A stretch of DNA of 40,293 nucleotides from Methylococcaceae bacterium. GTDB taxonomy: Bacteria > Pseudomonadota > Gammaproteobacteria > Methylococcales > Methylococcaceae. Below, piece after piece: positions 32,673-36,318 of the stretch. How positions within the stretch are numbered: position 1 is the first letter of the stretch; every line of letters begins with the position of its first letter. The stretch lies in contig CADDYU010000019.1 in NCBI GenBank assembly GCA_902810705.1, forward strand, positions 1 to 40,293, given 5' to 3'. Made by a program: the position numbers and the translations under genes. The notes below the pieces were generated by a model that ran no database searches, was not told the origin of the DNA, and saw only the letters and a list, made by a program, of their open reading frames with translations.

Positions 32673-33227
32673 TTAAGTCCGCCACTTGATGGAACAGCCC
32701 ATGCTGGCGATTTGTTCCTCAGGACCCTGGCCGGTCAAGGCGATTTGTTTCATGGCCTCGAATAGCTCGCGCCGAGCGCCGATCGGCGCGGTTTCCTTGC
32801 GGCTGGCATCGAGACGGCCTCGGTATTGGAGCCGCAAGTCCTTGTTATACCCGAAGAAATCGGGAGTGCATACGGCGCCGTAGGCCTTGGCGATCTCCTG
32901 AGTCTCGTCGAAGAGATAAGGAAACGGATAACCGAATTTCTCGGCCACGCGCCGCATGTTCTCGAAGGAATCCTCGGGGTAATCGGTGGGATCGTTGGAC
33001 ATGATGCCGACGGCGCCAATGCCATATTGCTTCAGTTCGGCCACATCCCGGACGAGCCGCTCCTGGACGGCTTTAACGTAAGGGCAGTGATTGCAGATAA
33101 ACATCACCAAAAGGCCATTTGGCCCTTTGCACTTGTCCAGTGTCCAAACTTGCCCGTCTACGCCTGGCAGCGAGAAGTCAACGGCTGGCTTGCCGAATTC
33201 ACAGAGGGGAGTTTCGGTTCGAACCAT
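32673..33227 (-). CDS. Thioredoxin-fold AhpC/TSA-like protein with CNHCPYV motif
   Basis: The 184-residue protein resembles the redoxin family often annotated simply as 'thioredoxin family protein'. It has VDFSLPGVDG at the N-terminus, then LLVMFICNHCPYVKAVQERL with Cys45 and Cys48, a GIMSNDPTDYPEDS loop, and TPDFFGYNKDLRLQYRGRLD, the region with a cis-Pro. There is no signal peptide, so it is cytosolic. Substrate unknown; peroxiredoxin or disulfide reductase activity are both possible. It may be co-transcribed with pgk. Confidence 0.85.
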   Translation of the reverse strand: MVRTETPLCEFGKPAVDFSLPGVDGQVWTLDKCKGPNGLLVMFICNHCPYVKAVQERLVRDVAELKQYGIGAVGIMSNDPTDYPEDSFENMRRVAEKFGYPFPYLFDETQEIAKAYGAVCTPDFFGYNKDLRLQYRGRLDASRKETAPIGARRELFEAMKQIALTGQGPEEQIASMGCSIKWRT

Positions 33228-33380: not shown

Positions 33381-35030
33381 TTACGACCAGAAGGACCAGC
33401 GATCGCCCGCCAGCACCGACAGCGCAATCAGGCCGTTGGAGACCATGTGGGCGGTTATGGCGTCACCCAGCTTGCCGCGGCGGTAAAATGCCAAGGCATA
33501 GATCATTCCGGCCAGAGTTCCGGCCAGCCAGCGGGTATGGAGCAGGCCAAAGGCGAGCGAAGAGAGAATGAAGGATCCCCAGGTGAACCGAGGTGGAGCG
33601 AGCGTATCGAAGTGCTGTCCGGCGAGTCTACGAAGCAAATACCCTCGAAAGGCCAATTCCTCCACCCAAGGGATGATAATGATCGATCCCGCCACTCGGA
33701 ACGCCAGCCATAGGGCCTTTTGGCCGGCGGGCAGCGCCGCGAGGGCGGTCTCCAGCACGGATTTAGCTCCCCCGTTCATGGAGGGCTCCAGGACGATCCA
33801 GATTGCGAACACGGCGGCGCCCATGACCGCTCCCTGCCAGCCAAATGACCAATCCCAACCCCGGTAAACCCCACGAAAATGCCAAAGCACGGCCGCCGCG
33901 GCAATAATCCGCCAAGGATACAGCCAATCAAATTCACCGTCGGATAGCGCGGAAGTCAACACAAGGACTCCCATCAGCACCAACCAGGGAACCAGCAGAG
34001 GTGCAGCGGCATTGCTTTCCTCGACAAGGACGCCGCGCGAAGTGGCTTTCATAAAAATCCGTAGCCTGCGCATCGCCAGAATTAAGCCCAAGGCGACGGC
34101 GATAAAAGCAATCCAGCCGGCCTGGGAATGGAATCCCCCCATAGCCACCTTGGGAGAAAAGGAAGTACCAATGGCGATCAATAAAGCGATGCGCACCGAA
34201 TTCGCCAGCCAAACCGCCAAGGCTCCTATGGGAAACAGCAGAAATGCTTGGGGGAAACGTATTTCGGCACGAAACAGCCACAAATAAATCACCAAGAACA
34301 CCGTCACGAGGCCGATGCCCTCATAGCCCGAGCAGGATGGGGCGATATCGACGAGGAAATTGGGTGTGCCTAAGATGTGGGTTTCGGAATCGTGCACGAC
34401 ATCCCGGTAACCCAAGCTCAAAAGCCGGTAAGACAGCCAAAATGTCCCCGCCGTCAGCGGTCTCCAGAGCTCCTGTGCGAACAATCCGCCGAGCCAGGCC
34501 GCTAGTCCGGCCAGCATGGCGGCCAATAGCGCGAGCCCTTCCCGGGAGAATAGCCTCACCCAAAAACCCATGGGGAGCATGACTTCTAGCCATAGGCCGA
34601 AGCTTGCGAGTCCCAATCCAGCCCATCCCGCGATGAGGATCCCTGGAATCTCTGCGCCGGCCGCGGCTAAATCAAAGAGGAGAGTAGTGACCTCGCAGAA
34701 AGCTAGAAAGATCAAGAGATGGATCAATAGCCAACGCCACCAGAGATGGCTCAAAGCGAATTGCCGCGCTTCCCCGACCAGAGCCTGAATACGTGGCGCG
34801 AGAATCAACAGGAATGCCGCTAGGAAAGCCAAGACCAAGCGCAATAACGCGGGCGCCTCGCCGGCAAGATGGGTCCACTCGGAATCTCTCTTGGAAAGGA
34901 CTAGAGTGTCGAAGCACACCGAGAGCCCGATCAATTCAATAATCGGCACGGCGGCCAGCAAACCCCAGCGAAGTGAGAGCGGCCAAGGCTTGGACAGGCG
35001 ATAGGAAGCCCGATGTTCGAGGCGTGGCAT
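33381..35030 (-). CDS. xrtE: Exosortase E / CPBP intramembrane protease fusion (VPEID-CTERM system)
   Basis: The 549-residue polytopic membrane protein joins two proteases. The exosortase half (about 1-330) has the catalytic triad positions Cys233 in IAPSCSGYEGIG, Arg280 in NSVRIALL and His301 in GGFHSQAGW. The C-terminal half (about 345-549) is a CPBP (CAAX-type/Abi) protease with Glu457-Glu458 and Arg462 in WVEELAFRGYLLRRL, His498 in FGLLHTRW and His528 in TAHMVSNGL. This fusion is the family named exosortase E/protease, which is associated with proteins bearing a VPEID C-terminal sorting signal. No such substrate is encoded in the window, so it may lie elsewhere on the chromosome. A weak ribosome binding site precedes ATG 35030. 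Confidence 0.9.
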   Translation of the reverse strand: MPRLEHRASYRLSKPWPLSLRWGLLAAVPIIELIGLSVCFDTLVLSKRDSEWTHLAGEAPALLRLVLAFLAAFLLILAPRIQALVGEARQFALSHLWWRWLLIHLLIFLAFCEVTTLLFDLAAAGAEIPGILIAGWAGLGLASFGLWLEVMLPMGFWVRLFSREGLALLAAMLAGLAAWLGGLFAQELWRPLTAGTFWLSYRLLSLGYRDVVHDSETHILGTPNFLVDIAPSCSGYEGIGLVTVFLVIYLWLFRAEIRFPQAFLLFPIGALAVWLANSVRIALLIAIGTSFSPKVAMGGFHSQAGWIAFIAVALGLILAMRRLRIFMKATSRGVLVEESNAAAPLLVPWLVLMGVLVLTSALSDGEFDWLYPWRIIAAAAVLWHFRGVYRGWDWSFGWQGAVMGAAVFAIWIVLEPSMNGGAKSVLETALAALPAGQKALWLAFRVAGSIIIIPWVEELAFRGYLLRRLAGQHFDTLAPPRFTWGSFILSSLAFGLLHTRWLAGTLAGMIYALAFYRRGKLGDAITAHMVSNGLIALSVLAGDRWSFWS

Positions 35031-35547
35031 AAAACAGCGTAGTGAAGCTGTAAGTATTTATAAAGTTGCGTACGGACGATGCTTCAAATGATAGGCTTAA
35101 TCAGTCAGCACTCGGGCAACGTCCGTCTATATCACGAGGCTCTGGGACCAGCCTTGTCAATCGAAGCTCCGATGAGCTGGCAGGCCGATGGTCTCACCAC
35201 GCCATTTCGCACCCCCGAACAAGTTTAGTATTTATGGCCTTGAACTGTAGAATGGCATGGCTTCTACTTCTCTGCTTTAAAAATGTGCCTTGAGAGCGTA
35301 GCGCTTTCTTTCACCCATCCACTTTGATCGTCCGAGCCGAAAGCGCCTGGAAATCCTGGCTAGCTTCGCGCCGAAAAAGCCGCGGGAAGCCGTTACCTCG
35401 CTGCGTCGTTGAATAATATTCAGGGCCGTGCTTTTAGGTCCGGACATGACCCTTTGCTGGGCTCCCGACGTATCAAGCCCTGCCCTAACGCCGTGACTCG
35501 GTTGATTCAATGCGAAGCGGCCCGCGGAGAGAACGGTCTAAGCTTTT
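35031..35547. other. 517-base region without a convincing gene
   Basis: Short frames on both strands (35066-35293 plus, 35079-35228 plus, 35277-35510 minus) have no family likeness and poor ribosome binding sites. An 8-base inverted repeat GCGCTTTC/GAAAGCGC lies at 35301-35308 and 35339-35346. The minus frame 35277-35510 is basic (Arg/Lys-rich) and could be the remnant of a mobile element or a dispersed repeat, but I cannot show that here. Promoters for both flanking genes must be in this stretch. Confidence 0.45.
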
Positions 35548-36318
35548 ATGATGAAGCGCCCTCATACCGCCTACTTTCGGTTCTACGAAGAACTCAATGA
35601 TTTTTTGGCGCCCGCACAACGCCGTCAGACGCTCTGCTATGACTTCGAGGGGCATCCCGGCATCAAGGATCCTATCGAAGCTTTCGGGGTGCCGCATACG
35701 GAGGTGGACCTTATCCTCGTCGATGGAACCTCCGTCGGGTTCAACCATCAACTGCAGCCGGGTGAGCGGGTCGCGGTTTTTCCCACCTTCGAGAGTTTCG
35801 ATATTTCGCCACTGGTCAAGCTGCGCGACCGGCCGCTGCGGCACACCGCCTTCGTGGTCGATGCCAATCTTGGCAAGCTGGCCCGGCGACTGCGCATGCT
35901 GGGCTTCGATGCACTCTACGATCGTCGGTATCGAGACGATGAAATCGCTGACATTGCCGCCCTGGAACGGCGGATTGTCCTGACCCGCGACCGCCGTTTA
36001 TTGTTCGCCAAGCGCATCAGTCACGGCTATTGGCTGCGCTCGACGGCGCCTGATGAGCAAGTCCGAGAGGTCTTGAATCGCTGCGATTTGTGGCGCCAAA
36101 TCCGGCCCTTGCAGCGCTGCCTGATGTGCAACGGAGTATTGGAGTGGGTGTCCAAGGCCGAAATCCTCGACCATCTGCAACCCAAGACCCGGCTGTATTA
36201 CGAGGTGTTTTTCCGCTGCGCCGGGTGCGGAAGGATTTATTGGGAGGGCTCGCATGTAGCGGATATGCGCGAGCGGTACCTGGGCGCCGCCCTAGCCGCC
36301 AAGGAAGCACCGGAATGA
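35548..36318 (+). CDS. Mut7-C RNase-fold protein with N-terminal ubiquitin-like domain
   Basis: The 256-residue protein has two parts. Residues about 5-90 form a ubiquitin/ThiS-like domain (ELNDFLAPAQRR, ending in QPGERVAVFPTFESF). Residues about 98-250 match the Mut7-C PIN-like RNase domain: FVVDANLGKLARRLRMLGFD, YRDDEIADIA, and ERRIVLTRDRRLL with the acidic residues of a PIN active site. A zinc-ribbon follows, CLMCNG and CAGCGRIYWEGSH. This architecture is widespread in bacteria, but the RNA target is unknown. The ATG at 35548 (or 35551) has a weak ribosome binding site. Its stop overlaps the next start as ATGA. Confidence 0.88.
   Translation: MMKRPHTAYFRFYEELNDFLAPAQRRQTLCYDFEGHPGIKDPIEAFGVPHTEVDLILVDGTSVGFNHQLQPGERVAVFPTFESFDISPLVKLRDRPLRHTAFVVDANLGKLARRLRMLGFDALYDRRYRDDEIADIAALERRIVLTRDRRLLFAKRISHGYWLRSTAPDEQVREVLNRCDLWRQIRPLQRCLMCNGVLEWVSKAEILDHLQPKTRLYYEVFFRCAGCGRIYWEGSHVADMRERYLGAALAAKEAPE

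Follow-up and report, generated by a model that had tools for sequence, protein, structure and literature searches.

An exosortase E/CPBP double protease of a Methylococcaceae bacterium and a candidate PEID-CTERM partner encoded on another contig

A gene for an exosortase E fused to a CPBP protease was analysed in a draft genome of a Methylococcaceae bacterium. The fusion is probably an enzyme dedicated to tail processing by two proteases, with its partner gene relocated elsewhere in the genome; the most likely partner is a 79-aa protein encoded on contig C40. Comparison across genomes showed that the enzyme and the tail signal go together almost without exception, and that the substrates of exosortase E/CPBP systems are mostly microproteins, usually too small for a conventional surface protein.

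The fusion gene and its catalytic residues

The window, which is the whole stretch of DNA analysed (40,293 nucleotides), is the entire contig C19 of a 5.03-Mb draft genome (375 contigs, 93.6% complete, 4.78% contaminated). The xrtE-CPBP fusion is a single open frame running from 35030 to 33381 of the window. The features are as follows.

32673..33227, minus strand: AhpC/TSA-family gene (PF00578), downstream neighbour, outside the system
33381..35030, minus strand: xrtE-CPBP fusion gene, 549 aa from ATG plus stop (open frame and profile matches)
34059..35030, minus strand: exosortase half, about residues 1-324 (PF09721 at 65-322, TIGR04178 at 227-322)
33384..34058, minus strand: CPBP (Rce1-like glutamic protease) half, about residues 325-549 (PF02517 at 441-533, TIGR03008 at 348-548)
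34332-34334, minus strand: Cys233, exosortase site, predicted to face the periplasm
34191-34193, minus strand: Arg280, exosortase site
34128-34130, minus strand: His301, exosortase site
33657-33662, minus strand: Glu457-Glu458, CPBP site
33537-33539, minus strand: His498, CPBP site
33447-33449, minus strand: His528, CPBP site
33435-33437, minus strand: Asn532, CPBP site
35031..35547, no strand: upstream gap of 517 bases, the site of the PEID-CTERM gene in many relatives, empty here by six-frame reading and profile searches
35548..36318, plus strand: Mut7-C RNase gene (PF01927, PF14451), divergent neighbour, outside the system

A sequence-only reading had described the neighbours as housekeeping genes, and domain matches agreed (PGK, AhpC/TSA-type, Mut7-C RNase, RelA/SpoT, RecG, MutS, EF-Ts, DXP reductoisomerase and GlnD). 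Its remark that no substrate is encoded near the gene held for the window: searches of the genome with TIGR04161 and with our own profile placed no PEID-type signal on this contig, and six-frame reading of the 517 bases between the fusion and the next gene gave no PEID-type frame. Elsewhere in the genome, contig C99 (locus L001) carries a separate XrtA (353.6 bits) beside a PEP-CTERM/XrtA-type glycosyltransferase gene.

Profile analysis confirmed the fusion that had been read from the sequence. TIGR04162 (exosortase E/protease, VPEID-CTERM system) matched at 236 bits against a cut-off of 150, covering positions 47-514 of the 516 in the model. The exosortase half matched PF09721 (39.5 bits, cut-off 25.7), and the CPBP half matched PF02517 (54.7 bits, cut-off 22.4) and TIGR03008 (135.6 bits, cut-off 81.05). 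The families nearest to the CPBP half were MrtJ and Mrt_core, relatives of myxosortase; the fusion scored 25.9 bits with the MrtJ model (cut-off 75) and 22.9 bits with Mrt_core (cut-off 100), which is below the level of myxosortase membership, and 18.1 bits with the XrtA model TIGR03109 (cut-off 208). Judged by these profiles, the window gene belongs to TIGR04162, an already known family of double proteases. Four fusions of EpsH-like and CAAX-protease-like domains were reported by Haft et al. 2006 (PMC1569441), in the portion of that paper drawn on here, and taken as a functional link; with that report and the NCBIfam models for enzyme and signal, the gene is of a known kind. The literature search found no experiment on any exosortase E, and the term VPEID-CTERM did not occur in the literature searched.

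Scanning of genome contigs revealed relatives of the fusion in 218 stretches, so the fusion gene is not a chance product; no relative was seen in viral contigs, and thus the scan gave no sign of a phage link. The best 80 of the 218 loci by match to the full-length query were kept as named loci, and an enzyme frame was located in 77. The alignment used for conservation (A3, 66 rows) consisted of the window protein and the enzyme frames of 65 of the 77 relatives, each relative short of its last residue; alignment A5 consisted of the window protein and 44 of the 77 frames.

The seven catalytic residues called intact from the sequence alone were all found as placed, and relatives had not lost them: C233, R280, H301, E457, E458, H498 and H528, together with N532, were invariant in 66/66 sequences, a conservation that is partly built in for the exosortase half because the scan motifs contained its Cys and His. 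No scan motif was taken from the CPBP half, though its loci were still ranked by match to the full-length query. A regular expression for EExxFR, applied to the 80 loci, hit 76 of the 77 with a located enzyme frame; since ranking was by full-length match, unfused enzymes are under-sampled in this count. Going by the invariant residues, both halves are under selection.

Over the 66 rows, K+R counts showed a regular alternation, which placed the N-terminus inside and gave 15 membrane crossings. By this charge count, which used no coordinates, Cys233 and His301 are predicted on the outer face and Glu457/458 where a helix ends on the inside. The two sites thus probably face opposite sides of the membrane and could each work on a different end of one tail helix. 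An AlphaFold2 model had a mean pLDDT of 91.7 for the whole fusion and 91.2 for the CPBP half. Foldseek, with E up to 0.001, matched neither the whole model nor the CPBP half to a PDB entry, and sequence search found no solved relative. A second look (VIA) gave Z 7.7, rmsd 4.2 and 133 aligned residues with SpdC (6u0o), and Z 6.1, rmsd 6.0 and 181 aligned residues with Rce1 (4cad), both Z values being too low to establish a shared fold.

The candidate partner and its pairing with the enzyme

The genome-wide scan for C-terminal VPEID-type signals proposed in the sequence-only reading was run and yielded one good candidate, on contig C40, so the suggestion that the enzyme is without a substrate was not borne out and a PEID-CTERM candidate is present in the genome.

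C40:15966-16205: candidate substrate, 79 aa from ATG (TIGR04161 and PEID tail profile)

The protein starts with a signal peptide MNKSLGLSIYTAILALIMNSSGWA and continues as SSQDPLPPKAQGCNGVGNPHCVS, then APEIDALSGGGAIGMLVGVLFLLKGRSRRSSK; the parts after the signal peptide are a 23-residue middle with two cysteines, the motif SAPEID (APEID), a hydrophobic helix and a basic tail. The tail holds no Cys.

TIGR04161, whose curated cut-off is 33 bits, had its best match in the genome at C40:16107-16193, with 21.1 bits (E 0.0026). A profile of PEID tails (A2), built from 41 of 68 tails, gave C40 50.7 bits and the next place in the genome 14.7 bits, with the C40 row included in the profile. When this row was left out, the profile of the 40 other tails scored the C40 tail at 40.8 bits (E 7.4e-10 at 100,000 targets), and a profile from named-collection loci only gave 39.9 bits for the whole C40 sequence. 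Tetranucleotide usage of 16 kb of C40 correlated with that of the window at 0.93, compared with 0.92 between two parts of the window and 0.61-0.79 for nine loci of other genomes. The sub-cut-off TIGR04161 score and the lack of linkage to xrtE speak against the pairing; because the genome is a draft of 375 contigs with 4.78% contamination, another substrate may be missing or C40 may be foreign. The 79-aa exported protein is the most likely partner of the fusion.

The candidate gene is preceded by a CtaA-FtsY joint frame, and a Na+-dependent nucleoside transporter gene lies beyond on the opposite strand. The joint frame (L162:5449-7464) has 672 codons and matched COX15-CtaA heme A synthase at 199.7 bits and an FtsY-like SRP54 GTPase at 265.8 bits; it may be a fusion or an assembly error.

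TIGR04162 was present in 15 of 151 genomes, namely the genome of the window and its relatives. TIGR04161 at E 0.01 was found in 13 of the 151, comprising 12 of the 15 with the enzyme and 1 of the 136 without it (Fisher p 3e-14). With TIGR04161 and A2 taken together, the signal was found in 15/15 enzyme genomes and 1/136 others; A2 holds tails from some of these genomes, so the 15/15 count is not independent, while the count from TIGR04161 alone is. The sole exception among the 136 was G022, a 72% complete genome. Among 398 genomes of the phylum, the signal was found in all four with TIGR04162 over cut-off and in 1 of the 394 others, where the frame contains a stop; in several genomes of this set and of the 50-genome set below, scoring covered a part of the first-look candidates. 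Six further genomes of the phylum had partial, sub-cut-off TIGR04162 matches, and none of them had the signal.

The signal gene adjoined a full-length enzyme gene in 12 of the 15 enzyme genomes, lay beside an enzyme fragment in one, and was unlinked in two, which were the present genome and G037. The G037 enzyme was the closest in the first alignment (53% identity). Probably enzyme and partner genes have come apart in the present genome, while 12 of the 15 keep them as neighbours, and the lack of a partner next door does not have to mean that the partner is lost. The first downstream neighbours, taken in 68 of the 71 loci having one (three very long ones excluded), included no family in more than 5 of the 68. 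At L163 and L164, which had the highest TIGR04162 scores, the PEID gene stands tail to tail with the enzyme gene, which follows a ParA-like gene.

Size and arrangement of substrates in relatives

With our own profile, 65 of the 80 named loci yielded PEID-type frames, 92 in total; 91 were on the strand of the enzyme and 1 on the opposite strand. Among 88 placed same-strand substrates, 84 ended upstream of the enzyme gene (12 to 2,674 bases) and 4 lay downstream of its start. No substrate was found with this profile in 15 of the 80 loci, some of them on short contigs; L132 was counted among the 15 although it has a substrate about 4 kb away, which our script dropped for want of a placed motif. 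A shuffled-tail control, which is crude, gave 0 matches in 11,724. The profile contains nothing but tails and therefore puts small proteins at no advantage.

The median length of the 92 substrates was 62 aa, and 55 had at most 35 residues before the motif, barely one signal peptide. These 55 short substrates mostly started with ATG (49/55) and had a Shine-Dalgarno-like match of at least 4 bases (44/55), with starts and signal-peptide ends chosen by our own script and not by a trained predictor. One frame, at L059, had no predicted signal peptide.

In 50 whole genomes with such loci, at least one match was found in 48, with 104 matches in all and exactly one in 28 genomes. The two genomes without an A2 match (G560 and G567) both had weak candidates beside the enzyme (L072 and L084), the one at L084 with E 0.0036. 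The 104 frames had a median of 86 codons, 96 of them had at most 150, and 5 exceeded 200.

Two to four substrate copies were present in 16 of the 65 loci. In 40 copy pairs from 15 loci, the mean alignment scores per residue were 0.56 (signal peptide), 0.05 (middle) and 0.86 (tail), the middle value being gap-penalised with negatives set to 0, and very short strings being easily unlike; the tail scored higher in 40/40 pairs. In some tandem arrays the middles were 3-8 residues long and differed between copies with like ends. In Marinicaulis-labelled and similar MAGs the middles included GQAVK, SIPMHE, GNGHIPD and GEPWVE, each before a near-constant VPEMSAGAGVAAVALL(V/I)GVAAIIRERSKRK. Some middles recurred: GEPWVE in two different MAGs (L134 and L137), and GQAVK at two loci within a single MAG. 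L120, L124, L129, L134 and L137 carry tandem arrays of three to four PEID-type mini-genes; as the enzyme loci L120 and L124 both come from one MAG, the likeness between them does not extend across species.

Codon differences in the tails were mostly synonymous. At least two cysteines were present in 13 of 30 longer middles, as in the C40 candidate. Only 3 of the 92 PEID tails contained any Cys, and without a regular Cys in the tail a prenyl- or lipid-cysteine route is unlikely.

Proposed action, alternatives and known systems

The proposed route of the C40 protein would have four steps. Its AxA-type end suggests that it would be exported by Sec and cut by signal peptidase. The tail helix would then anchor it in the inner membrane. 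As in the exosortase family, the exosortase half would cut at PEID with its outer-face Cys/Arg/His and free or transfer the short outer part. The CPBP half, with its Glu pair in the inner half of the membrane, might cut the left-over helix or the basic tail, which is the least certain step of this inferred route; the sequence-only reading was right to leave the job of the second protease open. The fusion, the intact residues, the enzyme-signal pairing and the small substrates rest on data; the cleavages, their order and the fate of the product are a proposal. The question of what the enzyme acts on thus has a concrete candidate for an answer.

Substrates this small hint that the system makes short exported peptides. 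Tentatively, exosortase E/CPBP systems may be peptide makers, in which the usual precursor has 50-80 residues and consists of a signal peptide, a short middle and a strongly conserved PEID-type tail; signal peptidase and the two fused proteases would cut it at both ends, and a peptide of a few residues would be released or lipid-linked, perhaps as a cell-cell signal. If so, tandem copies with differing middles would encode different peptides, and the product in the present genome would be a 23-residue peptide with two cysteines. If the middles are released as peptides, their maturation would run through a single chain that combines a cysteine-type with a glutamate-type membrane protease. The relatives include cultured hosts with the adjacent pair, Methylobacter marinus A45 and Singulisphaera acidiphila DSM 18658, in which this could be tested. 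The comparison across genomes gives a different picture of the family, with near-constant pairing, an often single substrate per genome (28/50) and small substrates. No account of exosortase E substrates was among the literature matches listed; the main review was outside the search, so the microprotein pattern is not claimed to be unpublished.

The exosortase half could instead perform ordinary surface sorting, acting like XrtA on its own set of proteins, with substrate size immaterial and the CPBP half only clearing the cut tails. Exosortases generally pair with PEP-CTERM surface proteins (PMC1569441, in the portion used here), and some substrates are large: L058 has three tandem frames of 286-391 codons, G037 has one of 266, and 5 of the 104 frames exceed 200 codons. 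The sizes as a whole make this account rather doubtful, given that the 13 PEP-CTERM frames over cut-off in the present genome have a median of 338 codons against 86 for the PEID-type frames, and that 54 of 91 substrates have at most 10 residues from the script-predicted signal-peptide end to the motif. L058 (2425-5881) is the closest named relative (59% identity, from a Rhodocyclaceae-labelled MAG), and its three large PEID-CTERM genes stand in a row before the enzyme.

It is unlikely that the two halves are joined for co-expression alone and that the CPBP half works on some unrelated client, for instance cleaved signal peptides or XrtA substrate tails. The present genome, with its XrtA and 13 PEP-CTERM matches, would offer such clients, and the fused copy is its only TIGR03008 domain; a standalone TIGR03008 protease also occurs beside PEP-CTERM genes in G510. 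The near-universal EExxFR pattern and the Glu pair in 66/66 rows argue against this, with the under-sampling of unfused enzymes borne in mind. Standalone TIGR03008 members were found in three genomes of the phylum sample; the one in G510 (L167:1-2145) directly follows two PEP-CTERM genes, with no exosortase in the 3.6 kb covered.

Alternatively, the products of the short genes might keep their first helix uncut and sit in the membrane as two-helix hairpins with a role in regulating or assembling the protease. About one helix's length precedes the motif in 55/92, and the tail amino acids are near-constant while codons vary (in one case of 30 codons, 18 were the same, 11 synonymous and 1 changed). 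Signal peptidase I substrates have N-terminal Lys/Arg, a hydrophobic core and A-x-A, and the short substrates fit this pattern; AxA lies within the last 12 residues before the motif in 47/55, whereas 500 shuffles averaged 16.9 and never exceeded 28. Such hairpins are therefore improbable. That the enzyme is a left-over whose substrate was lost, the C40 protein being a chance look-alike, would agree with the sub-cut-off match and the unlinked genes, but is very improbable, and an orphan enzyme was rejected, in view of the leave-one-out score, the gap to the next best place in the genome, the intact catalytic residues and the pair kept in 15/15 enzyme genomes.

The probable two-protease enzyme and its tail signal resemble several known systems. 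XrtA/PEP-CTERM, as on C99, shares the exosortase fold and the tripartite signal; XrtA differs in being a separate gene without a CPBP part, with 13 PEP-CTERM matches in larger frames. For the EpsH-CAAX fusions, the portion of PMC1569441 drawn on here names neither a substrate nor microproteins. Myxosortases (MrtX, MrtJ, MrtC; MYXO-CTERM/JDVT-CTERM) share a CPBP protease of a nearby family linked to a C-terminal tripartite tag; according to the part of PMC11980579 consulted, MrtX was reported to cut MYXO-CTERM C-terminal tags, and MrtJ, paired with a single target, likewise forms a two-gene system. They differ in the invariant Cys of the MYXO-CTERM motif, which has no regular counterpart in the PEID tails, and in lacking an exosortase half. 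In rhombosortase/GlyGly-CTERM, dedicated single-target systems tend toward adjacent genes, as reported in the part of PMC3237569 used; the protease there is an unrelated serine protease with many targets in other genomes. The closest comparison is the TIGR04162/TIGR04161 system itself. The partner here is unlinked and its tail lies below the TIGR04161 cut-off, while relatives usually have the partner next door; the fused architecture, both catalytic sets and the TIGR04162 score over its cut-off are shared, and the genome has a candidate C-terminal signal of the same type.
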